DNA from: Hyphomonas beringensis
GTDB lineage: Bacteria; Pseudomonadota; Alphaproteobacteria; Caulobacterales; Hyphomonadaceae
DNA length: 64,000 nt
Direction of reading: 5' to 3'
NCBI RefSeq assembly: GCF_000682755.1
Contig: NZ_AWFF01000013.1
Span: 1 to 64,000 of the forward strand
Shown: positions 15,991 to 45,485 of the stretch, piece after piece
How positions within the stretch are numbered: position 1 is the stretch's first letter
Layout of the letters: each line of letters begins with the position of its first letter
Position numbers and translations under genes: made by a program
Notes under the pieces: model-generated
The model's database searches: none
Told to the model about the DNA's origin: nothing
The model's input: the letters and a program-made list of their open reading frames with translations, nothing else

Positions 15991-17322
15991 ATGGCTGCCG
16001 ATACGGCCCAAACAATTGATCACCCCGCCTTGCAGCGCCCTAAAGTCACGGAGCGCGAGCCCCTTCATCCGGGCTATCTGCGCCTTGGTGAGGAAGTTCC
16101 GCCTGCAAGCGAACTGGATATGGAAACGCTGGATCTGGTCGACCCTGAAGTCTGGCGCCAAGGGAAATATTGGGACCGCTTCGCACGCCTGCGTAAAGAA
16201 GACCCGATCCACTTCACTCCGGATTCCTTTGTCGGCCCATACTGGTCCGTCACCCGCTATGAAGACATCATGGCCGTGGATACAGACCACAAGCGCTTCT
16301 CCTCCAGCTGGGAATATGGCGGTATCACGCTCGGCAGCCCACCACCGGATTTTGAACTTCCCATGTTCATCGCCATGGACGAGCCGCGCCACTCCGAACA
16401 GCGAAAGACTGTTTCACCGGCCGTAGCCCCGAACATGCTCAAGGAATTCGAGCCGCTGATCCGCGAGCGCACCGCAAAAGTGCTCGACAGCCTTCCGGTT
16501 GGCGAACCCTTTGACTGGGTGGATCGCGTTTCCATCGAGCTGACCGGCTTGATGCTGGCAACCCTGTTCGACTTCCCGCAGGAGCGCCGCCGTGAGCTGA
16601 CCCGCTGGTCTGACATTGTTACAAACATGAACAATCCTGACATTTGTCCTGGGGGTGAAGAGCAGTGGAAGCAAGAGCTTCTGTCATGCCTCACCGTCTT
16701 CATGGGCATCTTCCAGGAACGTCAGGCCATCCCGCTGAAGAATGATCTGATCAGCCTTCTGGCGCATGGCGAGAAGACCAAGAACATGACGCCGATGGAA
16801 TTGCTCGGCAATGTGATCCTGCTAATTGTCGGAGGCAACGATACGACCCGGAACTCGATGACCGCGTCTGTCTATGCTCTCAACTCTTTCCCCGATGAGT
16901 ACAAAAAGCTGAAGGCAAATCCGTCCCTGATTCCAAACATGGTTTCAGAGACGATCCGCTGGCAGACCCCACTCGCCCACATGCGCCGCACTGCGGTTGA
17001 GGATGTCGAACTGGGCGGCAAGCTCATCAAGAAGGGCGACCAGGTCGCCATGTGGTATGTCTCAGGCAACCGCGATGAGGAATTCTGGGACCGCCCGAAC
17101 GACTACATCATTGATCGCTCGAATGCCCGCCGGCACCTCTCCTTCGGCTTCGGCATTCACCGCTGCGTCGGCAACCGTCTGGGCGAGCTGCAGCTGCAGA
17201 TCCTGTGGGAAGAGCTGATGAAGCGCTTTGAGCATATTGAAGTTCTTGACGAGCCATCCCGCACCTCTGGTGGCTTCGTCAAAGGCTACACCTGGATGCC
17301 AGTGATCCTGCACGGCAAATAA
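15991..17322 (+). CDS. Cytochrome P450, CYP153 family (alkane / fatty-acid omega-hydroxylase)
   Basis: 443-residue soluble P450. The oxygen-binding I-helix reads GGNDTTRNS (281-289), the K-helix ETIR is at 320-323, and the haem loop FGFGIHRCVGNRLGE carries Cys392. The pattern over the whole length (FIAMDEPRHSEQRKTV, LTGLMLATLFDFP, PNMVSETIRWQTPLAHMRR, WYVSGNRDEEFWDRP) is that of CYP153, which hydroxylates the terminal carbon of alkanes or fatty acids. These enzymes need ferredoxin and a ferredoxin reductase, and neither gene is adjacent. GGAGGA precedes the ATG. A hairpin with a T-run follows the gene. Confidence 0.92.
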   Translation: MAADTAQTIDHPALQRPKVTEREPLHPGYLRLGEEVPPASELDMETLDLVDPEVWRQGKYWDRFARLRKEDPIHFTPDSFVGPYWSVTRYEDIMAVDTDHKRFSSSWEYGGITLGSPPPDFELPMFIAMDEPRHSEQRKTVSPAVAPNMLKEFEPLIRERTAKVLDSLPVGEPFDWVDRVSIELTGLMLATLFDFPQERRRELTRWSDIVTNMNNPDICPGGEEQWKQELLSCLTVFMGIFQERQAIPLKNDLISLLAHGEKTKNMTPMELLGNVILLIVGGNDTTRNSMTASVYALNSFPDEYKKLKANPSLIPNMVSETIRWQTPLAHMRRTAVEDVELGGKLIKKGDQVAMWYVSGNRDEEFWDRPNDYIIDRSNARRHLSFGFGIHRCVGNRLGELQLQILWEELMKRFEHIEVLDEPSRTSGGFVKGYTWMPVILHGK

Positions 17323-35138: not shown

Positions 35139-35978
35139 TCAGGCGGCCCTTTCAGCCTCCTCATCTTCCTCATTGAGGAAGTCCTGTATGATGGCTGCAG
35201 TCTCTTCCGCCTGCGTTACAAGAAACAGGTGACCGCCGCCTTTCATAATATGCAGGCGGGCGTCTGGCAGACCAAACTTCAGAATGTGACCATTCGCAAC
35301 CGGCACGATTGTATCCTGATCGCCCATCAGGATCAGTGATGGCATGCTCAGGAAACGGATGAATGGCAGACTGGACCAGCCGAGAAATGCCAGCAATTGG
35401 TAGACATAGCCTTTCGGGTCCGGCGCCATCAGATTGTTGATGTGCCGGCCGGCCTCCCCTTCAACGGCATCACCGTAGAGCGTCTCGAAGCTCTCGCGCA
35501 TGAAATCCGGGTCAGAATACCGGCGCGCATCGACCATCTTGGACAGGGATTTTGGACGACCTGGCACCATGGTCATGCCAGCCGTTGTCGCACACAGGAT
35601 CAACTTGCCAACACGTTTGCGATACTGAAACGCATATTGTTGGGCCAGCGCCCCGCCCCACGAAACGCCCATTACATCCACATCTTCGATGCCGTAAATA
35701 TCCAGCAGCTTGCGGGCCCAGCGGGCCAGCATCCAGGGCCGGTAAGGCCATTGGGTTACCGGGCTTTTGCCAACGCCGGGCACATCAAAGGTGATGATAT
35801 CCCGATCCGTGAACATCTCACCCAAGCCTGCAGTCAATTCCAGATTGGCGCCAATGCCATTGAAGAACAACAAAGGCCGGTTGCCCAAATCTGTTTCAGC
35901 CTTCCAGAAAGCTGTGCGCAGCTGGATACCATCGACATCCTGCATCAGGATTACGGGCGTTCTATCTGTCTGGGCCAT
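35139..35978 (-). CDS. phaZ: Intracellular medium-chain PHA depolymerase
   Basis: 279-residue alpha/beta hydrolase matching Pseudomonas PhaZ throughout: PLLFFNGIGANLEL, ITFDVPGVGKS, the nucleophile Ser106 in GVSWGGALAQQYAF, ATTAGMTMVPGRPK and a histidine in GGGHLFLVTQAEE. It releases hydroxyacids from stored polyester granules. No signal peptide, as expected for a cytoplasmic enzyme. It starts 5 bases after the phaC stop, so it is in the phaC operon. A general serine hydrolase is possible but unlikely given the context. Confidence 0.9.
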   Translation of the reverse strand: MAQTDRTPVILMQDVDGIQLRTAFWKAETDLGNRPLLFFNGIGANLELTAGLGEMFTDRDIITFDVPGVGKSPVTQWPYRPWMLARWARKLLDIYGIEDVDVMGVSWGGALAQQYAFQYRKRVGKLILCATTAGMTMVPGRPKSLSKMVDARRYSDPDFMRESFETLYGDAVEGEAGRHINNLMAPDPKGYVYQLLAFLGWSSLPFIRFLSMPSLILMGDQDTIVPVANGHILKFGLPDARLHIMKGGGHLFLVTQAEETAAIIQDFLNEEDEEAERAA

Positions 35979-35983
35979 ATTGG

Positions 35984-37672
35984 TTACTCATCAAAAACAT
36001 ATCTTCCGGGAGCATTATAGAGAGGCGGAAAGCTCTCATTTCCGCAAGCTTTTGGCGCAGTCTTGAGTGCTCCCGATCTCTGCTTCAGCCATTCTCCCCA
36101 GACGGGCCACCAACTGCCCGCCTCTTCCGTTGCACCCTCGGCCCATTCTTCGGCTGTTGGCGCAATATCAGAATTGCGAAACATCTTGGCCTTGGGGTTA
36201 CCAGGCGGGTTCAGCAGGGATTGGATATGACCACTAGAAGACAGGACAAATTCGACATTCTCAGACCCCAGAAGACCCGTCGTACGGTAACAAGCCTTCC
36301 ACGGCGTAATGTGATCCGTCAGGCCTGCGACCACAAAGGCATCTGCCTTGACCTGCGTCAGGTCCAGCTTGTGGCCGGCGACATCATATTCGCCGGGATG
36401 ATCAAAGGGCTGGTTGAGACCAAGGTCAAGATAGTCGGAATGCAACTGCGCCGGAAGATTGGTTGAATCATTGTTCCAGTACAGAACATCAAATGGTGGC
36501 GGATCTTCCCCCATCAGATAATTGTTCACGACATAGTTCCAGACGAGATCATTCGGCCTCATCCAGGCAAACATGCGCGCAAGGTCATCCCCTTTCAGAA
36601 TGCCCTTGCGGCGGGAATATTTGCGCGCCACTTCGAGGCTTGCATCAGAGACGATCTGACCAAGCTCGCTATCTTCACGCTGAGGGTTCAGCACACAGAC
36701 CATGAAGGTGAGCGTATTGATACGGTCATCGCCGGCCCCAGCAAGCAGGCTGGCCAGCGTTGCTGTCGTGATACCACCTGAACAGGCGCCAGAGATGTTG
36801 ATCTTCCTGGACTTGGTAACACGCCGGACCACTTCGCTCGCCTGGACGAGACTGTCGATATAATCCGACAGGCCCCAATCCTTGTGCTCTTTGGTCGGGT
36901 TACGCCAGGACACGACGAAGGGCTGCATCTCCATGGCGAGCAGGAATTGCACCATGGACACCATAGGCGAAAGGTCCATGGCATAGAATTTGTTGATTTG
37001 AGGCGGAATAATGAAGATCGGTGTACGGTGAACCTTGTCCGTCAGCGGCTGATACTGGATCAGCTCCATCATCTCGTTCTTCCAAATGACGGAGCCCTTC
37101 GTTGTCGCGAGGTTTTCACCGACCTTGAACGGCCTCTTGTCCACCTGGCTCGGCAAACCGCCATTCTTCGTCAGATCCGTATAGGCGTTTTTCAGACCCT
37201 TCAGCAGCGATAAGCCACCGGAATCAACAACACGCTTCGTTGCTGCCGGATTGCCGAGCAGCGTGTTCGTGGGCGCCATGGCGTCAGTGATCATACTCAT
37301 GACGAACTTAGCTCGGGCATGCTCCAGCTCTGTCATGCTCAGCTCAGCCACCCAGTCGTTAAGGTGCTCCTGCGTCGCCAGATAGGCCTGCATACCGCGC
37401 CTGTAGAACGGGTTGTGCTGCCAGGCGGGGTCCTTGAAACGACGATCCTTCGGGTTGGCCGCACGATCTGACTTTCCGAACAGGATCTTTGTGTGCTCTG
37501 CGGTGATCTTCCCGGCAGTTTTGGCCGTAGTCACCGGGTTCGTCATGGTAGAGCGCAGCATCATCGCGACCGCGCCCAGTAATTCCTGTCTGTTAAAGCC
37601 CGCCATCAGCGGATTCATGGCATTCGTGGCTTCGGCCGCATTTCGGGCGATTTCATCCTTGGCGCCTGGCAT
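35984..37672 (-). CDS. phaC: Class II (mcl) poly(3-hydroxyalkanoate) synthase
   Basis: 562-residue PHA synthase, close in length to Pseudomonas PhaC1 (559). The lipase-like box is GACSGG with nucleophile Cys297, and the triad is completed by Asp453 (LTDHITPW) and His482 (SSSGHIQS). Segments such as RRFNDPAW-like RRFKDPAWQHNPFYRR, MAPTNTLLGNPAA, PPQINKFYAMDLSP, SWRNPTKEHKDWGL and FAWMRPNDLVWNY are those of class II enzymes, which polymerise C6-C14 hydroxyacyl-CoA. ATG 37672 has GGAGGA and AGGGA upstream and matches the Pseudomonas start; the longer frame is not supported. Divergent from the PhaD-type regulator. Confidence 0.93.
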   Translation of the reverse strand: MPGAKDEIARNAAEATNAMNPLMAGFNRQELLGAVAMMLRSTMTNPVTTAKTAGKITAEHTKILFGKSDRAANPKDRRFKDPAWQHNPFYRRGMQAYLATQEHLNDWVAELSMTELEHARAKFVMSMITDAMAPTNTLLGNPAATKRVVDSGGLSLLKGLKNAYTDLTKNGGLPSQVDKRPFKVGENLATTKGSVIWKNEMMELIQYQPLTDKVHRTPIFIIPPQINKFYAMDLSPMVSMVQFLLAMEMQPFVVSWRNPTKEHKDWGLSDYIDSLVQASEVVRRVTKSRKINISGACSGGITTATLASLLAGAGDDRINTLTFMVCVLNPQREDSELGQIVSDASLEVARKYSRRKGILKGDDLARMFAWMRPNDLVWNYVVNNYLMGEDPPPFDVLYWNNDSTNLPAQLHSDYLDLGLNQPFDHPGEYDVAGHKLDLTQVKADAFVVAGLTDHITPWKACYRTTGLLGSENVEFVLSSSGHIQSLLNPPGNPKAKMFRNSDIAPTAEEWAEGATEEAGSWWPVWGEWLKQRSGALKTAPKACGNESFPPLYNAPGRYVFDE

Positions 37673-37739
37673 TTCCCTTATTCCTCCACATGCCGGTCTT
37701 CTCTGGCACAAGGGCCAGGCGCCGACTTCGTTCCCCACT

Positions 37740-37758
37740 TCTTTCCATGATGGAAAGA
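37740..37758. promoter_or_regulatory. 19-bp palindrome in the phaC / phaD divergent promoter
   Basis: TCTTTCCAT-G-ATGGAAAGA has perfect 9-base arms around one central base. It lies 68 bases upstream of phaC and 70 bases upstream of phaD. The symmetry and position suit a TetR-type operator, most simply for the adjacent PhaD regulator. Confidence 0.6.
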
Positions 37759-37827
37759 GTAATCATGAAACTTTGAAATAAAATTCGTTCCATAGTCAGA
37801 ATTGCGTGTCAAACTACTTCGCAAACC

Positions 37828-38460
37828 ATGAAGACCCGAGAGCGCATCCTTCACGTCAGCCTGCTTCTCTTCAATGAAGAAGGAGAAGCCCCTCAAACGG
37901 CTGTCGATATTTCGAACGCGCTGAATATCAGCCCGGGCAATCTGTACTACCATTTCAAGGGCAAGGACGCGATTATCCGAGCCCTTTTCGACCGGTTCGA
38001 CGAGGAGATGCGGATCATCCTGCGTGGCTCCCGCGGCGGCGTAACCTCCATTCAGGACAATTGGGTCTACCTCTACATCATCCTCGAAGAGATCTATGAC
38101 TTCCGCTTCTTCTATCGGGATCTTGGCCTGTTGCTGGATCGCTACCCGGACCTTGCCGTGCGCTTCCGCGCCATGGTGGCCGAGGAGAAGAAAACGATCC
38201 ACCGCGTGCTGGACGAGTTGACACGGGAATCCGTCCTGAACCTTGATCCGCGCCTGAAGGCTGCACTGGTGGACCAGATCATGATGACGCTGACCTTCTG
38301 GCTGGCAGGAGACAGTCTGTCTTCTGAGCATCATGACGGCCCTGCCCTGATCCATAAAACTGTGTTCCAGGTGATGTGCCTGATCGTACCCTATATGGGC
38401 GAGGCAGGCTTTGACACGCTGACGCACATGATCGCCCATTACGAAAAGGCGACCTCCTAA
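37828..38460 (+). CDS. phaD: PhaD-like TetR-family regulator
   Basis: 210-residue TetR-type protein. The N-terminal helix-turn-helix is MKTRERILHVSLLLFNEEG followed by ALNISPGNLYYHFKGKDAIIRALFDRF. The recognition helix NLYYHF and the C-terminal part (FRFFYRDLGLLLDRYPDLA, VDQIMMTLTFWL) match PhaD of Pseudomonas, an activator that senses a fatty-acid-derived ligand. Divergent from phaC, with a palindrome in between. A shared bidirectional hairpin separates its end from the convergent phasin gene. Confidence 0.88.
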   Translation: MKTRERILHVSLLLFNEEGEAPQTAVDISNALNISPGNLYYHFKGKDAIIRALFDRFDEEMRIILRGSRGGVTSIQDNWVYLYIILEEIYDFRFFYRDLGLLLDRYPDLAVRFRAMVAEEKKTIHRVLDELTRESVLNLDPRLKAALVDQIMMTLTFWLAGDSLSSEHHDGPALIHKTVFQVMCLIVPYMGEAGFDTLTHMIAHYEKATS

Positions 38461-38486
38461 AAAAAGGGCGGCTCGTTGAGCCGCCC
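38459..38486 (-). terminator. Intrinsic terminator of the phasin gene
   Basis: A perfect 9-bp stem, GGGCGGCTC (38466-38474) with GAGCCGCCC (38478-38486), has a 3-base loop. On the minus strand it is followed by seven T (38465 down to 38459), so it ends the phasin transcript; the plus-strand phaD reading lacks a T-run. The stem starts 6 bases after the phaD stop. Confidence 0.85.
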
Positions 38487-38500
38487 TGTCAAAGTGCTGT

Positions 38501-39424
38501 CTAGTTCTTGAGAACCTTGGCCTGTTTGACCCATTCGTCACGCAGGACACGCCCGCGTGCTGCAATGGTTTCATCCAGCTTTTCCGCTTCTGCCTTTGTC
38601 ATGGCCGCGATCTGGGTAAAGCTCGTGACGCCAGCTGCCTTCAGCTTTTTCGCCAGAGCCGGGCCAACGCCTGTCATCAGAGTGAGATCGTCAGCCGTCG
38701 TTGCTTTTGCAGGCGCTGCCTTCGCGGCGACTGGTTTGGCCGGTGCGGCCTTCTTGGCGGAGGCAGGCTTGTCTGCCTTCTTCGCCTTTTTGGCTTTTTC
38801 CGGTTTGGCCATGGCGTCCTTCACGGCCTTCGTCGTGCGCTTGGCGACCTTCTTGGTTGCCTTGGCATAATCAGCCGTTGCTTCTCCAGCCACGGACTCA
38901 ATCTCTGCTGTCAGACGGCTGATGCGGTCTTTGAGGTCCGAATTGCGTTCCTTGGCCTTGCCGCGCGCCTTGGAGACGGTTTCAGCGACTTCGTCTTCCA
39001 GCTTGTCGATCTTGGCGGCGAGCTTGTTGCCCTTCTTGCCGAGATCCTTGACGCCCAGAAGATCACGCATACGCTCCATGCGGGCCTCGAACTCGTCACG
39101 GGCCTGCGCCTGAAAGTCACGTGCAGCTTCCGCATATTTGGAAACGGATTGCCCCGCCTTTGCAACGGTTTCATTCGTCGCCAGGCGTTCGCGGACTTCG
39201 TTTTCAATTTCTTCGCCGCGCTTGACCAGATCGTCAAAAACGTCCGAGGACTGTTTGTTGAACTTGTTGGCATTCGCCAGCGCCTTGTCATAGGCCTTGC
39301 CATAGGCGCCGACGCCAGCAAGCCATATCTTGTGAGCCATATCAGCTGTGTTTGCTTCAATGGCCTTACCGACGGTCTCGGCCTTTTTACGGGCCTTCGT
39401 CTTTTCTTTCTTGTTCTTTGCCAT
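38501..39424 (-). CDS. phaF: Phasin with Lys/Ala-rich histone-like region and C-terminal helix-hairpin-helix
   Basis: 307-residue granule-associated protein. The N-terminal phasin domain (about 18-125) resembles PhaI/PhaF (IWLAGVGAYGKAYDKALANANKFN, VFDDLVKRGEEIENEV), followed by coiled coil (about 125-185). Next is a K/A/P-rich, histone H1-like stretch (about 190-245) as in PhaF. The last 60 residues add a helix-hairpin-helix fold (LTLMTGVGPALAKKLKAAGVTSFTQIAAMT), which standard PhaF lacks. PhaF binds granules and DNA to segregate granules. ATG 39424 has AGGAG upstream. The gene symbol is by resemblance. Confidence 0.85.
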   Translation of the reverse strand: MAKNKKEKTKARKKAETVGKAIEANTADMAHKIWLAGVGAYGKAYDKALANANKFNKQSSDVFDDLVKRGEEIENEVRERLATNETVAKAGQSVSKYAEAARDFQAQARDEFEARMERMRDLLGVKDLGKKGNKLAAKIDKLEDEVAETVSKARGKAKERNSDLKDRISRLTAEIESVAGEATADYAKATKKVAKRTTKAVKDAMAKPEKAKKAKKADKPASAKKAAPAKPVAAKAAPAKATTADDLTLMTGVGPALAKKLKAAGVTSFTQIAAMTKAEAEKLDETIAARGRVLRDEWVKQAKVLKN

Positions 39425-39562: not shown

Positions 39563-40267
39563 ATGAGCGCAGTTGATTACACCGTCGATGGCAAGACTTA
39601 TGAAGGCTATTACCTTCGCGCCAAGGGCAAAGACGTTGCCCCTGTCGTGGTGATTGCCCACGCCTGGGGCGGTCTGGGCGATAATGAAATCGAAAAGGCT
39701 GAGCGTGTTGCAAATGAACTCGGCTATGCTGCGTTCGCAATGGACGTTTACGGCAAGGGAAAGCGCGGCACGACCGTTGAGGAAAACCAGGCACTCATGA
39801 ATCCACTGGTTGAAGACCGCGCGGAATTGCAGAAGCGCCTTGCTGGCGGGCTGGCCGCAGCAAAGCAGCAAGTCGGCGTTGACCCTAAGAACGCAGCAGC
39901 CATCGGCTTCTGCTTTGGCGGTCTATGCGTGCTGGACATGGCGCGCGCCAATATGGACGTCGCCGGCGTTGCCTCTTTCCACGGCCTGTTCAGCCCGGCT
40001 GACAACATTCCGTCCCCGAAGATCAGCGCCAAAGTCCTGATGGAGCATGGCTGGCTGGACCCTATGGCCACACCAGAGGATGTCATGGCCATCACTAAGG
40101 AAATGGGCGAGGCCGGCGCAGACTGGCAGATGCATGTGCACGGCCAGTGCCAGCACGCCTTCACGACGAAGGGTGCGAACAACCACGACATGGGCACAGT
40201 TTATAATGCCGATGCGGACCGGCGCAGCATGGAAAGCCTCAAGGCCTTCCTGGCTGAACTGTTCTAG
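39563..40267 (+). CDS. Dienelactone hydrolase-family protein
   Basis: 234-residue alpha/beta hydrolase of the dienelactone hydrolase family. The nucleophile cysteine is in IGFCFGGLCVLDMA and a catalytic histidine is in CQHAFTTKGAN. AHAWGGLGDNE is the oxyanion region. Named members cleave dienelactone in chloroaromatic breakdown, but this broad family includes many uncharacterised esterases, and the neighbours (phasin, phoB) give no hint. AGGAGG precedes the ATG. Its end overlaps phoB by 4 bases. Confidence 0.87.
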   Translation: MSAVDYTVDGKTYEGYYLRAKGKDVAPVVVIAHAWGGLGDNEIEKAERVANELGYAAFAMDVYGKGKRGTTVEENQALMNPLVEDRAELQKRLAGGLAAAKQQVGVDPKNAAAIGFCFGGLCVLDMARANMDVAGVASFHGLFSPADNIPSPKISAKVLMEHGWLDPMATPEDVMAITKEMGEAGADWQMHVHGQCQHAFTTKGANNHDMGTVYNADADRRSMESLKAFLAELF

Positions 40268-40950
40268 TCAGCGCGCAGCGCATACCCGGCGGAGCGGACG
40301 GTCCGGATCGGATCGTCCCCGCCTTCCTGACGAAGGGCCTTGCGAAGACGGCCGACATGAACGTCCACCGTCCGCGCTTCGACATAGACGTCAGACCCCC
40401 AGACGGTATCCAGCAATTGCTCGCGTGAGAACACGCGCCCCGGGTGCTGCATGAAGTAGTCCAGCAGGCGGAATTCCGTCGGCCCGAGGTGAATTTCGAC
40501 ATCATTGCGGATCACTTTGTGCGCCACACGGTCGATCTCTATATCGCCGACGACAATGCGATCATCCTTGAGGCCAGGCCGAATACGGCGTAGCACGGCG
40601 CGCACCCGCGCCATCAGTTCGGTCGTTGAGAAAGGCTTGGTGACATAATCATCCGCGCCGGTATCCAGCCCGCGAATACGGTCGCTTTCCTCGCCCCGGG
40701 CCGTCAGCATGATGATCGGCAGATTAGGGTTGGTTCCGCCGCTGCGAACCCGGCGGCAGACTTCAATGCCGCTGATCTTGGGCAGCATCCAGTCCAGTAA
40801 CAACAGGTCCGGCGCCCGCTCCTCGATCATCAGCAGGGCTTCCTCACCATCTGCAGCGATTGCCACCTCATAATCCTCTTTCTTGAGGTTATAGAACAGC
40901 AGTTCGGAGACGGCGCTCTCGTCTTCGGCGATGAGCACATAGGGCTTCAT
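40264..40950 (-). CDS. phoB: Phosphate regulon response regulator PhoB
   Basis: 228-residue OmpR-class regulator. The receiver has E9/D10 and phospho-acceptor D53 (LLLLDWMLP), T and K in MLTARGEE and YVTKPFS. The winged-helix effector has LGPTEFRLLDYFMQHPGRVFSREQLLDTVWG and RTVDVHVGRLRKAL. These are textbook PhoB. ATG 40950 has GAGGA upstream. It is last in pstC-pstA-pstB-phoU-phoB; its kinase gene phoR is not in this window. Confidence 0.95.
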   Translation of the reverse strand: MKPYVLIAEDESAVSELLFYNLKKEDYEVAIAADGEEALLMIEERAPDLLLLDWMLPKISGIEVCRRVRSGGTNPNLPIIMLTARGEESDRIRGLDTGADDYVTKPFSTTELMARVRAVLRRIRPGLKDDRIVVGDIEIDRVAHKVIRNDVEIHLGPTEFRLLDYFMQHPGRVFSREQLLDTVWGSDVYVEARTVDVHVGRLRKALRQEGGDDPIRTVRSAGYALRAD

Positions 40951-40975
40951 GTCAGATCCTCTCAACTAGACCTAT

Positions 40976-41668
40976 TCAGATACCCGTATTGGGTGTTTTC
41001 GGGCGCTCATGGGGAATGAGATATTCGCCAGTGATCTGAAAGTAAATGAATTCTGCGATGTTGGTACAGTGGTCGCCGATGCGCTCAAGGTTCTTGGCCA
41101 TGAACAACATATGCGCGCCAGCGCTGATCGTGCGCGGGTCTTCAATCATGTAGGTGAGCATTTCCCGGAACAGGGAATTATAGTGCTGATCGATGTCGTC
41201 ATCGCTCTCCCAGACCGTCTTGGCGGCCTCGGCATTGCCGGTCGCATAGGCATCCAGCACCATGTGCAGCTGCAGCGAAACCGGGCGCGCCATGCGGGCC
41301 ACACCGTGGCGCATGGCGACCGGCACGGACTCATCCAGCATCAGCGTACGCTTGCCGATATTCTTTGAGAGATCGCCGATCCGCTCAAGTTCGCCTGCTG
41401 TCTTGAGGGCCGAGAAGACAGACCGCAAATCATGCGCCATAGGCTGGCGCCGCGCGATCAGGCTGACGATCTGGCGTTCGACCTCCTCCTCCAGGCGATC
41501 GACTTCCGGATCGCGCGTGATCACGTCTCGCGCCATGTCGTGATTGTTCCGGTCTACGGCCGCGCAGGAATCCAGGATCATGGTTTCCACGATCCCGCCC
41601 ATACGCATCAGGTCTGCGGCGATCTTTTCAAGTTCGTCTGTGAAGGCGGAAACAATATGTTCTGACAT
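40976..41668 (-). CDS. phoU: Phosphate transport regulator PhoU
   Basis: 230-residue protein of two three-helix PhoU repeats. The metal-binding signatures ELERIGDLSKNIGKR and NLERIGDHCTNIAEF are visible, one in each repeat. PhoU dampens PhoR signalling when phosphate is sufficient, acting through the Pst transporter. ATG 41668 (MSEHIVSAF) is 10 bases after the pstB stop. The longer frame to 41773 overlaps pstB and is not used. Confidence 0.95.
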   Translation of the reverse strand: MSEHIVSAFTDELEKIAADLMRMGGIVETMILDSCAAVDRNNHDMARDVITRDPEVDRLEEEVERQIVSLIARRQPMAHDLRSVFSALKTAGELERIGDLSKNIGKRTLMLDESVPVAMRHGVARMARPVSLQLHMVLDAYATGNAEAAKTVWESDDDIDQHYNSLFREMLTYMIEDPRTISAGAHMLFMAKNLERIGDHCTNIAEFIYFQITGEYLIPHERPKTPNTGI

Positions 41669-41678
41669 GTGAAACCTA

Positions 41679-42509
41679 TCAGCCGAAACGGCCGGTAATG
41701 TAGTCCTCTGTGCGGCGTACGCGAGGATTGGTGAATATCTGGTCGGTGTCTCCCATCTCCACGAGATTACCAAGATGGAAGAAGGCTGTGCGTTGGGACA
41801 CGCGGGCGGCCTGTTGCATGGAGTGGGTCACGATGACAATGCAGTAGCGCTTACGCAGTTCGTCGATCAGTTCCTCGATACGGGCTGTCGCAATCGGATC
41901 CAGGGCGGAACAGGGTTCGTCCATCAGGATAACTTCCGGACGCACAGCAATGGCGCGGGCGATGCAGAGGCGCTGCTGCTGACCGCCTGACAGGCTGGTG
42001 CCGGGCTGGGTCAGGCGATCCTTGACCTCATCCCACAGGCCTGCACGACGCAAGCTTTTCTCCACGACGGCATCGAGATCGTCCCGTCCGTCCACCATGC
42101 CATGGATACGCGGACCGTAGGCGATGTTGTCGTATATACTCTTCGGAAACGGGTTCGGCTTCTGGAACACCATGCCTACTCGCGAGCGCAGCAGCACCGG
42201 GTCGACGTCTGGCGAGTTGATGTTCTCGCCTTCCATGAAAATGTCACCGGTCACTTTCGCGCCCTCGATCGTGTCATTCATGCGGTTGAGACAGCGCAAA
42301 AAGGTCGACTTGCCACAGCCAGATGGCCCGATGAGAGCCGTCACGGCCCGGTCATGGATCGCGAGAGAGACGTCGAAAACGGCTTGTTTGTCATCGTAGT
42401 AGACGCTGACATTCTTACAATCGATGCGCGGATAGGTCAGCGCCTGCGTATTGTCAGCGCCTTCCCCGGTCAGTGCCAGGTCTGCTTTTGCCGGTCCGAC
42501 CGTATCCAT
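41679..42509 (-). CDS. pstB: Phosphate ABC transporter ATP-binding protein PstB
   Basis: 276-residue ATPase that drives phosphate uptake. Walker A is GPSGCGKST, the family-specific [21 protein letters not shown] follows, the ABC signature is [14 protein letters not shown], and Walker B is [16 protein letters not shown] 42509 has GGAG six bases upstream and overlaps the pstA stop; ATG 42515 is an alternative. The larger frame to 42614 is not needed. Confidence 0.95.
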
Positions 42510-44077
42510 CACCATCTCCGTTCGAACCTGCGGCGCAGGAACACAACAACGACATTCATGATAACAAGAAGCGACAGCAATATGACAATCGCTGCTGCTG
42601 TCATGGGCTCCCACGCTCTTTCGGCGTTTGATGCCCAGCTATAAATCAGCACGGGAAGTGCTGTGGCCTCATCTGTAGCAGAGTTTGGCACTTCCGCCAC
42701 AAAGGCCACCATACCGATCAGGAGAAGCGGTGCCGTCTCTCCCAGGGCCCGCGCCATGCCCAGAATTGCCCCCGTGAACATGCCAGGCGCGGCAAGGGGC
42801 AGCACATGGTGAAACACGGCCTGCATACGCGAAGCCCCGACCGCCAGCGCGCCACTGCGAATGGAAGGCGGCACGGATCTGAGCGAAGCGCGTGAGGCAA
42901 TAATCACCACAGGCAGGATCAGCAGGGCGAGCACAAGCCCGCCTACAATGGGGGCAGACCTCGGCAACCCGAACGTCCCAAGCAAAAGAGACGCCCCGAG
43001 CAGACCAAACACAATAGACGGCACTGCCGCCAGATTGTTGATGTTCACTTCGATGAGATTGGTCAGGCGATTACGCGGCGCGAATTCTTCCAGATACACG
43101 GCGGCGAAGATGCCCATGGGAATGGCCACACAGGCCGTCACCATCATGGTCAACAAAGAGCCGACAATGGCGGCCAGCGTGCCGGCGAGTTCTGGATAGG
43201 TGCTGTCTGTATGGGTCAGCAGGCTGGTATGCAGCACCCTGCGCGCATTGCCCGCCTTTTTCAGCGCGATGGCCCAGGCGATTTGCTGGTCCGAAATCGG
43301 GCGCTCAGCCTCAGGCAGCGGAATGATATGAGCAATAAGAGGTGTCTGTGTCAGATCTTCCAACTCACCCGTCAGCAAGGTTAGCCTGGCGGCATCCGCC
43401 GTGAGGGCTTCGACGCGGGCAACGGCATCCCCTCCTGCGAGAAGGACAGAACCGGTTGTCTGCCCCTCTTCCAGAAGGCTGCGAGTGCTGACCACTTTGC
43501 TGAGGCCAGGTGTGCCCGTGAGATTTATGCTTCCCTCTGCATCTGTCTGAACCTTCCCGGCAGAACCAACACGAACAGTCACATCCTTCGGTGAGCTGCC
43601 TTTGAAGTAGAGGTCCAGATCGTCAGATAGCGGCACCCGCACCTTGATTGACTTGCCAATCAGGGTCGGATTGGCCGCAACGCGCTCGGCCAGAGGCAAC
43701 ACGGCAAGACGGTTCACCAGTTCACTCAGTTCCTGGCGCGTCGCTTGTGACTGGGTCGCCTCCGGAAACTCTGTAAACAACTTATCGCGGACGAGTGTGT
43801 AGAACCCCTCGATGTTACGCGTGATCTCTGCCTCGCTCGTCTCACCTTCTGGCGCGACGAGGTCGGCCTGCAGCAGGACCTCCGTCTGATAGACATATTG
43901 CGTCGTGGCCGAATAGGCGCGCGTACCGATGGCAATGACCAGCAGAGCCAATGCAGACAAGGCGAATACAATTGCCGCAATCCCATACAGCCGGAACCGG
44001 GCATCCGCGGCCCGGCGCTTCTTGAGATGCTTCAGCGCCTTGGGTGTAATAAGTGAGGAGTCAGGCATCTTACTCAT
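42509..44077 (-). CDS. pstA: Phosphate ABC transporter permease PstA (long, with periplasmic insert)
   Basis: 522-residue permease, far longer than the 280-300 residue classical PstA. The first membrane helix (about 32-54) is followed by roughly 250 extra periplasmic residues of the DUF3333 type. Then comes the normal five-helix permease domain starting near 300, with [29 protein letters not shown] and the cytoplasmic loop [23 protein letters not shown]. It overlaps pstC by 8 bases. The large insert is usual in several alphaproteobacteria. Confidence 0.92.
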
Positions 44078-45485
44078 ATTTCTCCCGATAGCGTTGGACG
44101 ACGCGCAAGGCGATCAGGTTGAAGCAAAGTGTCACCAGGAACAGGACCAGGCCCAGCGCGAAGGCAGACAGGGTTTTGGGGCTGTCGAATTCTGTCTCCC
44201 CGGTCAGAAGGGCCACAATCTGCACCGTAATCGTGGTGAGATCAGTTGAGGGGTCAAAGGATATCCGCGCGCGCTGTCCAGCCGCCATCACGACAATCAT
44301 CGTCTCACCGATCGCCCGTGAGACCGCCAGCAACAAGGAGGCGACAATCCCCGGCAGAGCGGCTGGAAGAATAACCTGCTTGATCGTCTCTGACTTGGTC
44401 GCCCCCATGGCAAAAGCCGCGTCACGCAATGTCTGTGGCACGGCATTGATCACATCATCGGACAGGGACGAGACAAAGGGGATCACCATAATGCCCATGA
44501 CCAGACCTGCGGCGAGCGCGCTCGTCGGCTGCGCCGCAAACACGGGGCCGTTCGCCAGTCCCACATCAATCAGCGTCGCATTGATCCACAGCGCGATACT
44601 TCGCACGCCCGGCGCAACAACGAGCAAGGCAAAGAAGCCGTACACAACCGTCGGGATGCCGGCCAGCACCTCCAGCAAGGGCTTCACATAGGCGCGGGTT
44701 TTGCCGGAAGCATATTCGGAAAGATAGATCGCCGCGAAGAGGCCTACTGGAGCAGCCACGAACATCGCGATGAGCGCGATCATGAATGTGCCGAAAAATA
44801 GAGGAACAGCGCCAAACTCGGCATTAGTCTGCGCATTCCAGCGCGTGCCGAACAAGAAGTCCGTCACGGGCACCTGGGAGAAGAAGCGGATGCTCTCATA
44901 GAATAGTGAAGCCACGATGCCGACAGTCGTCGCAATGGCAATCGCCGCGCAGAGGAACAGGAAAAGCTCTGCGCCTGATTCCACCCGTTGCCGTGCCCGG
45001 AAATCCGGCGATACATGCGAGCGCGCAAACATCACGCCCAGCACCGCACTCAGCAGGATCATCGCCAGCGTGGTGATCTTGAGGCTGCCTGACAGTTCCA
45101 GATAGCGGTGCGTGACCGCTGTAAACACACGATCCGATCCATCATAGGCGCCATGAGCAGACACTGCGGAGACGGCATCAAGATAGGAGACCAATTCTGC
45201 CTTGGGCAGTCTGTGGAACGCTGCCGGTAATTCTCGAGTCAGCAGGTCTCTGGCAAGTGGTTCAGCCAGCAAGAGGTAAGCCAGCGCAAGAATCAGCGCC
45301 GGTGCCAGCCCCCACATGGCGACGTAATAGCCATGATAATTGGGCCGGGAGTGAAATTTTCCCGACGAGGACAGCGAGTAGCGCTCAGCCCGGATGCGGC
45401 CAATGGAAAATCCTGCCGACACCACAAAGAGCAGCAATGCGGTCAGCAGCCACCCCATCGGTAATTGGCCGAGCTGTTGCAACAT
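44070..45485 (-). CDS. pstC: Phosphate ABC transporter permease PstC
   Basis: 471-residue permease. An N-terminal extension of about 190 residues with three helices precedes the conserved permease domain, which includes GLFAAIYLSEYAS, LLEVLAGIPTVVYGFFAL and AFAMGATKSETIKQVILPAALPGIVAS. The first gene of the pst-pho operon; pstS and phoR are not next to it because hslV is divergent here. A Pho-box-like sequence sits 44 bases upstream. Confidence 0.93.
   Translation of the reverse strand: MLQQLGQLPMGWLLTALLLFVVSAGFSIGRIRAERYSLSSSGKFHSRPNYHGYYVAMWGLAPALILALAYLLLAEPLARDLLTRELPAAFHRLPKAELVSYLDAVSAVSAHGAYDGSDRVFTAVTHRYLELSGSLKITTLAMILLSAVLGVMFARSHVSPDFRARQRVESGAELFLFLCAAIAIATTVGIVASLFYESIRFFSQVPVTDFLFGTRWNAQTNAEFGAVPLFFGTFMIALIAMFVAAPVGLFAAIYLSEYASGKTRAYVKPLLEVLAGIPTVVYGFFALLVVAPGVRSIALWINATLIDVGLANGPVFAAQPTSALAAGLVMGIMVIPFVSSLSDDVINAVPQTLRDAAFAMGATKSETIKQVILPAALPGIVASLLLAVSRAIGETMIVVMAAGQRARISFDPSTDLTTITVQIVALLTGETEFDSPKTLSAFALGLVLFLVTLCFNLIALRVVQRYREKYE

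Follow-up and report, generated by a model that had tools for sequence, protein, structure and literature searches.

Is the polyhydroxyalkanoate (PHA) gene cluster of the alphaproteobacterium Hyphomonas beringensis a class II cluster of the kind found in Pseudomonas, and did it come from there? The cluster lies at positions 35139–39424 of contig NZ_AWFF01000013.1 (assembly GCF_000682755.1), of which positions 1 to 64,000 on the forward strand were analysed (the window). The genome containing the window is 3.8 Mb. A sequence-only reading of the window had described a Pseudomonas-type, class II gene set for medium-chain PHA and had suggested transfer or an unexpected lineage. We consider it probable that the cluster is a self-contained PHA storage module, long resident in Hyphomonas, with a synthase (PhaC) of a deep alphaproteobacterial clade and most likely a medium-chain or mixed substrate. 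Its genes and intergenic elements are listed below.

35139–35978, minus strand: phaZ, intracellular PHA depolymerase of the class II-cluster type, 279 amino acids; intact open reading frame (ORF), Ser106-Asp222-His250, TIGR02240
35984–37672, minus strand: phaC, class II-type PHA synthase, 562 amino acids, ATG start; intact ORF, Cys297, Asp453, His482
37673–37827, no strand: divergent intergenic region between phaC and phaD, candidate shared promoter/operator, kept across Hyphomonas
37741–37757, no strand: 17-bp perfect inverted repeat CTTTCCATGATGGAAAG, candidate TetR (PhaD) operator, from a repeat search
37828–38460, plus strand: phaD-type TetR regulator, 210 amino acids; PF13972, Pseudomonas homologues
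38465–38487, no strand: terminator-like hairpin between the convergent phaD and phasin genes; 10 pairs, 8 of them G-C, T run on the minus strand
38501–39424, minus strand: phasin, 307 amino acids, with a PhaF/PhaI-type N-terminal domain, a Lys/Ala/Pro-rich linker and an HHH C-terminal domain; PF05597

Gene set and catalytic residues

The cluster of phaZ, phaC, a phaD-type TetR gene and a phasin gene named in the sequence-only reading was confirmed as four intact ORFs with catalytic residues present, and the ORF and alignment bear out the Cys297 and 562-residue length given there for PhaC. PhaC contains a PhaC_N domain (Pfam, E 9.9e-64). Cys297 is surrounded by a GACSGG box and, like Asp453 and His482, is invariant across the synthase alignment. 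PhaZ has an intact Ser106-Asp222-His250 triad and an SWGG box, and the triad is kept in every alignment row covering the segment. The PhaD-type regulator carries the TetR C-terminal family PF13972 (Pfam, E 9e-28). The phasin passes the PF05597 cut-off of 28.8 (Pfam, 34.6 bits, E 2.2e-08) and scores under the cut-off of TIGR01837. It had been called PhaF-type, which holds for the N-terminal domain only (PhaF/PhaI-like); where PhaF carries a histone-like DNA-binding tail, this protein has the Lys/Ala/Pro-rich linker and then ends in an HHH domain resembling alphaproteobacterial PhaH and L21 tails.

The locus has one phaC. Genome-wide checks for pha and P450 genes were made as family searches. 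The sole other synthase found is a class I enzyme on a different contig (G000:C36; 614 amino acids), which passes the TIGR01838 cut-off. The genes phaB and phaR are adjacent to each other on another contig, and an unlinked PhaJ-type hydratase has (R)-specific enoyl-CoA hydratases as its nearest solved structures.

Phylogeny and residence in Hyphomonas

The named PhaC relatives that match best are mostly from Hyphomonas. In a tree of 73 synthases, class I and all class II-type proteins fell on opposite sides of a 100/100 split, and the window PhaC fell in a main alphaproteobacterial clade (100/99) apart from the Pseudomonas clade (100/100). An earlier PhaC tree under a mixture model gave identical groups. 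The PhaZ tree is congruent and has the same groups, so that both proteins, whose phylogeny had been proposed as a check on the sequence-only reading, group with the class II type and not with class I. Membership of PhaC in class I was rejected: forced placement there gave p 0.0003, and the class I model TIGR01838 scored 499.1 bits, below its cut-off of 622.65 (NCBIfam). A topology constraining the window PhaC inside Pseudomonas was also rejected (p 0.0002). Scores against the class II model TIGR01839 were bimodal over 397 Pseudomonadota genomes, with 1024–1080 bits for the Pseudomonas-type family, 601–700 for 17 alphaproteobacterial genomes and 472 or less for the rest. Fixed columns diagnostic of class I or class II numbered just 7, too few to decide; the window matches class II at three, class I at one and neither at three. 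The phaC gene is no copy of a Pseudomonas gene; its product belongs to a deep clade of alphaproteobacterial proteins within the class II-type superclade.

The same PhaC is present in 40 of 42 Hyphomonas genomes at 75–98% identity. Outside the genus its distribution is patchy (5/19 genomes elsewhere in the family and 14/40 elsewhere in the order), and related phaC-phaZ modules are spread across Caulobacterales, Sphingomonadales, Parvibaculaceae and Kordiimonadales. In Hyphomonas a dienelactone hydrolase gene is kept on one flank of the cluster, and beyond it lies a pst-phoU-phoB phosphate operon in 9 of 9 Hyphomonas-type loci examined. The opposite flank in several loci has genes for an Hpt-domain protein, an aldolase and 5-aminolevulinate synthase. 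The G+C content of the cluster resembles that of its surroundings. Since PhaC is genus-wide, its flanks are conserved and its clade is separate from Pseudomonas, the module is long resident in Hyphomonas and not a recent import. The transfer or unexpected lineage suggested earlier is thus not supported, given this distribution, the conserved neighbourhood and the breadth of the alphaproteobacterial clade.

Recent horizontal transfer of a Pseudomonas medium-chain cluster into this alphaproteobacterium is accordingly very improbable. The kinds of gene match those of Pseudomonas, PhaC identity to Pseudomonas is about 44–48%, related modules occur on plasmids (one of them conjugative), and presence outside the genus is patchy, all of which would suit a transfer. 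However, the gene order differs from that of Pseudomonas, the locus has one synthase and not two, and the tree test, genus-wide presence and synteny led us to reject it. Ancient transfer from one class to another is possible, as are losses of the module or its exchange among alphaproteobacteria.

Comparison with known systems separates the locus from each of them. The Pseudomonas phaC1-phaZ-phaC2-phaD and phaF-phaI clusters are alike in PhaC, in PhaZ (42–44% identity), in the TetR at the PhaD position, in a homologous N-terminal phasin domain, in the adjacency of phaC and phaZ and in the residues at sites 481 and 484. They differ in having two synthases; the window has phaD divergent with the phasin gene beyond it, an HHH phasin tail, different residues at three specificity sites, and sub-cut-off TIGR01839 and TIGR02240 scores. 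Betaproteobacterial class II-type clusters (group C of Burkholderia sensu lato, PMC8231600; Cupriavidus pinatubonensis PhaC2, PMC4636328) resemble the window in a single phaC with phaZ and in PhaC identity (~47%). Unlike the cluster here, they have maoC/phaJ, and no phaD was detected next to phaC-phaZ in them. The class I synthase of the same genome shares the alpha/beta hydrolase fold family, the catalytic triad and 38% identity, but class I synthases form a separate clade with different residues at sites 418, 481 and 484. Loci of Robiginitomaculum, Caulobacter, Phenylobacterium, Kordiimonas, Tepidicaulis, Parvibaculum, Erythrobacter and Qipengyuania belong to the same PhaC clade and share the phaC-phaZ pairing, which is found at nearly all class II-type loci with flanks examined, including beta- and actinobacterial ones. 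Gene order is phasin> phaD< phaC> phaZ> in Hyphomonas and Caulobacterales, whereas Kordiimonas, Marinicaulis and some Robiginitomaculum have a collinear phaC> phaZ> phasin> phaD>. In Erythrobacter types no phaD or phasin was detected beside phaC-phaZ.

Other records touch on this distribution. On a conjugative Bradyrhizobium plasmid (L184) and a Tsukamurella plasmid (L190), class II-type phaC-phaZ pairs are accompanied by genes for a MaoC-type hydratase and for an acyl-CoA ligase. Two genome records (L085, L087), one under the title Acidobacteria bacterium and one under Candidatus Sulfopaludibacter, contain the Hyphomonas pha and pst-pho neighbourhood with PhaC at 77–78% identity, and their titles look wrong. 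In a Rhodobacterales-labelled metagenome-assembled genome (L108, 4665–6476), a Hyphomonas-type phaC is split over two adjacent frames, perhaps by a frameshift or an assembly error.

Specificity sites and likely polymer

Site numbering was checked on 559-amino-acid Pseudomonas PhaC1-type proteins carrying E130, S325, S477 and Q481, the residues published for Pseudomonas sp. 61-3 and MBEL 6-19 (PMC3815930). Site 484 is Leu in Pseudomonas and Val or Ile in class I (PMC4636328). A further site, described as Tyr in class I enzymes and as Phe in those of class II, has been considered in relation to the tunnel through which substrate enters (PMC6403647), and was located in the window PhaC through the 5xav alignment. 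At these six sites the window PhaC has D130, C326, G418, S480, Q484 and L487. S480, Q484 and L487 equal the Pseudomonas states at sites 477, 481 and 484. Every class II-type proteobacterial row has Gln at site 481, and 20/20 class I rows have Ala there. Site 484 is Ile or Val in 20/20 class I rows, Ile in the betaproteobacterial group, and split within Hyphomonas (17 Leu, 18 Ile). Asp at site 130 is also found in 13 of 17 Pseudomonas rows and most class I rows, the PhaC1-type rows having Glu; at site 325 the window has Cys326 and Pseudomonas Ser. Position 418 is Gly or Ala in 35/35 Hyphomonas and Gly, Ala or Ser in 10/10 sister sequences, against Tyr in 20/20 class I proteins, Phe in 17/17 Pseudomonas proteins, and Tyr or Phe at other alphaproteobacterial loci. 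The effect of these residues on monomer choice we infer from sequence.

As proposed here, PhaC would polymerise (R)-3-hydroxyacyl-CoA via Cys297 with Asp453 and His482, the phasin would coat the granule, PhaZ would release monomers from the polymer, and the divergent PhaD-type TetR would control the cluster. For monomer supply and product, we infer that the most likely substrate would be medium-chain or mixed short- and medium-chain 3-hydroxyacyl-CoA, drawn from beta-oxidation through the unlinked PhaJ-type hydratase. On the simplest reading the genome would have two storage routes, with the class I synthase making short-chain polymer and this module making medium-chain or mixed polymer from fatty-acid oxidation.

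Several observations weigh against a class II-type, medium-chain or mixed module. The best NCBIfam match of PhaC is TIGR01839, at 690.3 bits, and that of PhaZ is TIGR02240, the depolymerase of class II clusters, at 218.7 bits; both miss their curated cut-offs (855.4 and 250.6). Strict class II membership of PhaC fails on this score and on the two-synthase layout, so that the class II assignment in the sequence-only reading stands for the grouping of PhaC and PhaZ but not in these two respects. D130, C326 and G418 depart from Pseudomonas PhaC1. No phaJ or phaG lies within the pha cluster. The tree fixes no order among the Pseudomonas, betaproteobacterial and alphaproteobacterial branches: topologies joining Pseudomonas to the main alphaproteobacterial clade (p 0.29) or all alphaproteobacterial rows together (p 0.11) were both undecided. 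Finally, C. pinatubonensis PhaC2, phylogenetically class II, uses 3-hydroxybutyryl-CoA only (PMC4636328).

Because that class II-grouped enzyme makes short-chain polymer only, a medium-chain product of the window PhaC is likely but not proven. An enzyme of class II type by descent but short-chain in function, making poly(3-hydroxybutyrate) (PHB) or poly(3-hydroxybutyrate-co-3-hydroxyvalerate) (PHBV) as C. pinatubonensis PhaC2 would suggest, is possible but on the whole unlikely. Cys at 326 in place of the Pseudomonas Ser, an Asp at 130 shared with most class I proteins and with many class II proteins of Pseudomonas, and the presence of phaB in the genome are consistent with it. However, the enzyme agrees with Pseudomonas in having Leu487 and Gln484, where the betaproteobacterial group has Ile at 487; Gly418 in place of an aromatic residue would, if anything, widen the tunnel; and the class I synthase of the same genome already covers short-chain polymer.

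The same position bears on another alternative, a broad-range synthase of mixed short-chain-length and medium-chain-length monomers, or one open to bulky or unusual acyl groups, in which Gly, Ala or Ser at 418 would open the substrate tunnel. The consistency of small residues in Hyphomonas and its sisters, set against Tyr in class I and Phe in Pseudomonas, and the published discussion of this site argue for it, but the argument extends from a single residue and we regard this alternative as rather doubtful. Extended to the clade, alphaproteobacterial class II-type synthases might be a functionally distinct subclass making mixed or unusually bulky polymers, with medium-chain PHA widespread in marine and freshwater alphaproteobacteria. 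We offer this tentatively, as a rather improbable case. Its marks would be Gln481 kept and Ser325 changed to Cys, with the tunnel aromatic changed to Gly, Ala or Ser in Hyphomonas and sisters. If it is true, medium-chain PHA synthesis would no longer be essentially a Pseudomonas trait.

According to a large genome-mining study, nearly all class II genotypes in proteobacteria are from Pseudomonas (PMC8312272). An alphaproteobacterial branch that is both deep and widespread alters this view of class II synthases as nearly a Pseudomonas speciality. The branch has been overlooked by the curated class II model because its scores fall under the cut-off, and no account of the clade was found in the open-access literature searched. 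It supplies natural variants at sites that protein engineers have mutated, and the near-even split between Leu and Ile at site 484 in Hyphomonas is a natural experiment on chain-length choice.

Regulation and flanking genes

The window TetR matches the TetR encoded at the PhaD position in three Pseudomonas clusters with 36–39% identity (E 1e-40 to 1e-42). PhaD regulates pha genes in Pseudomonas putida (PMC3918157). In the window the TetR gene diverges from phaC across a 155-base gap conserved in Hyphomonas. The inverted repeat at 37741–37757 is the sole match in the window, where ~2 one-mismatch matches are expected by chance, and it occurs in variant form in aligned Hyphomonas copies. A PhaD operator common to the phaC-phaD and phasin promoters was rejected, as a search of the phasin upstream regions found no copy of the repeat. 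A second element, TTTGACACGCAATTCTGACTATG at 37791–37813, lies upstream of phaD; it hardly varies among the aligned Hyphomonas copies, and a scan tolerating 3 mismatches finds it nowhere else in the window.

Beside the pha cluster, the phosphate operon occupies 40264–45485 and encodes phoB, phoU, pstB and pstC (curated models), with a permease-like ORF between. Phosphate limitation is known to trigger PHA storage, which may make the linkage worth testing.

The sequence-only reading had held that neighbouring hydroxylase genes fit the PHA module. The window has one such gene, a CYP153-like P450 gene at 15991–17322 (nearest solved structure CYP153A7; alkane hydroxylase family), which lies 18.7 kb from phaC, and only gene-order conservation links the two. 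A CYP153 copy is found about 16–21 kb from phaC in 11 of 11 Hyphomonas genomes checked. Functional coupling of the hydroxylase to the pha cluster was rejected in favour of general synteny because the genes between are mostly housekeeping. A metabolic link between CYP153 and PHA is plausible, though gene order does not show one. Besides the window copy, the genome carries another CYP153-like gene, with 59% identity to it, and further P450 genes.

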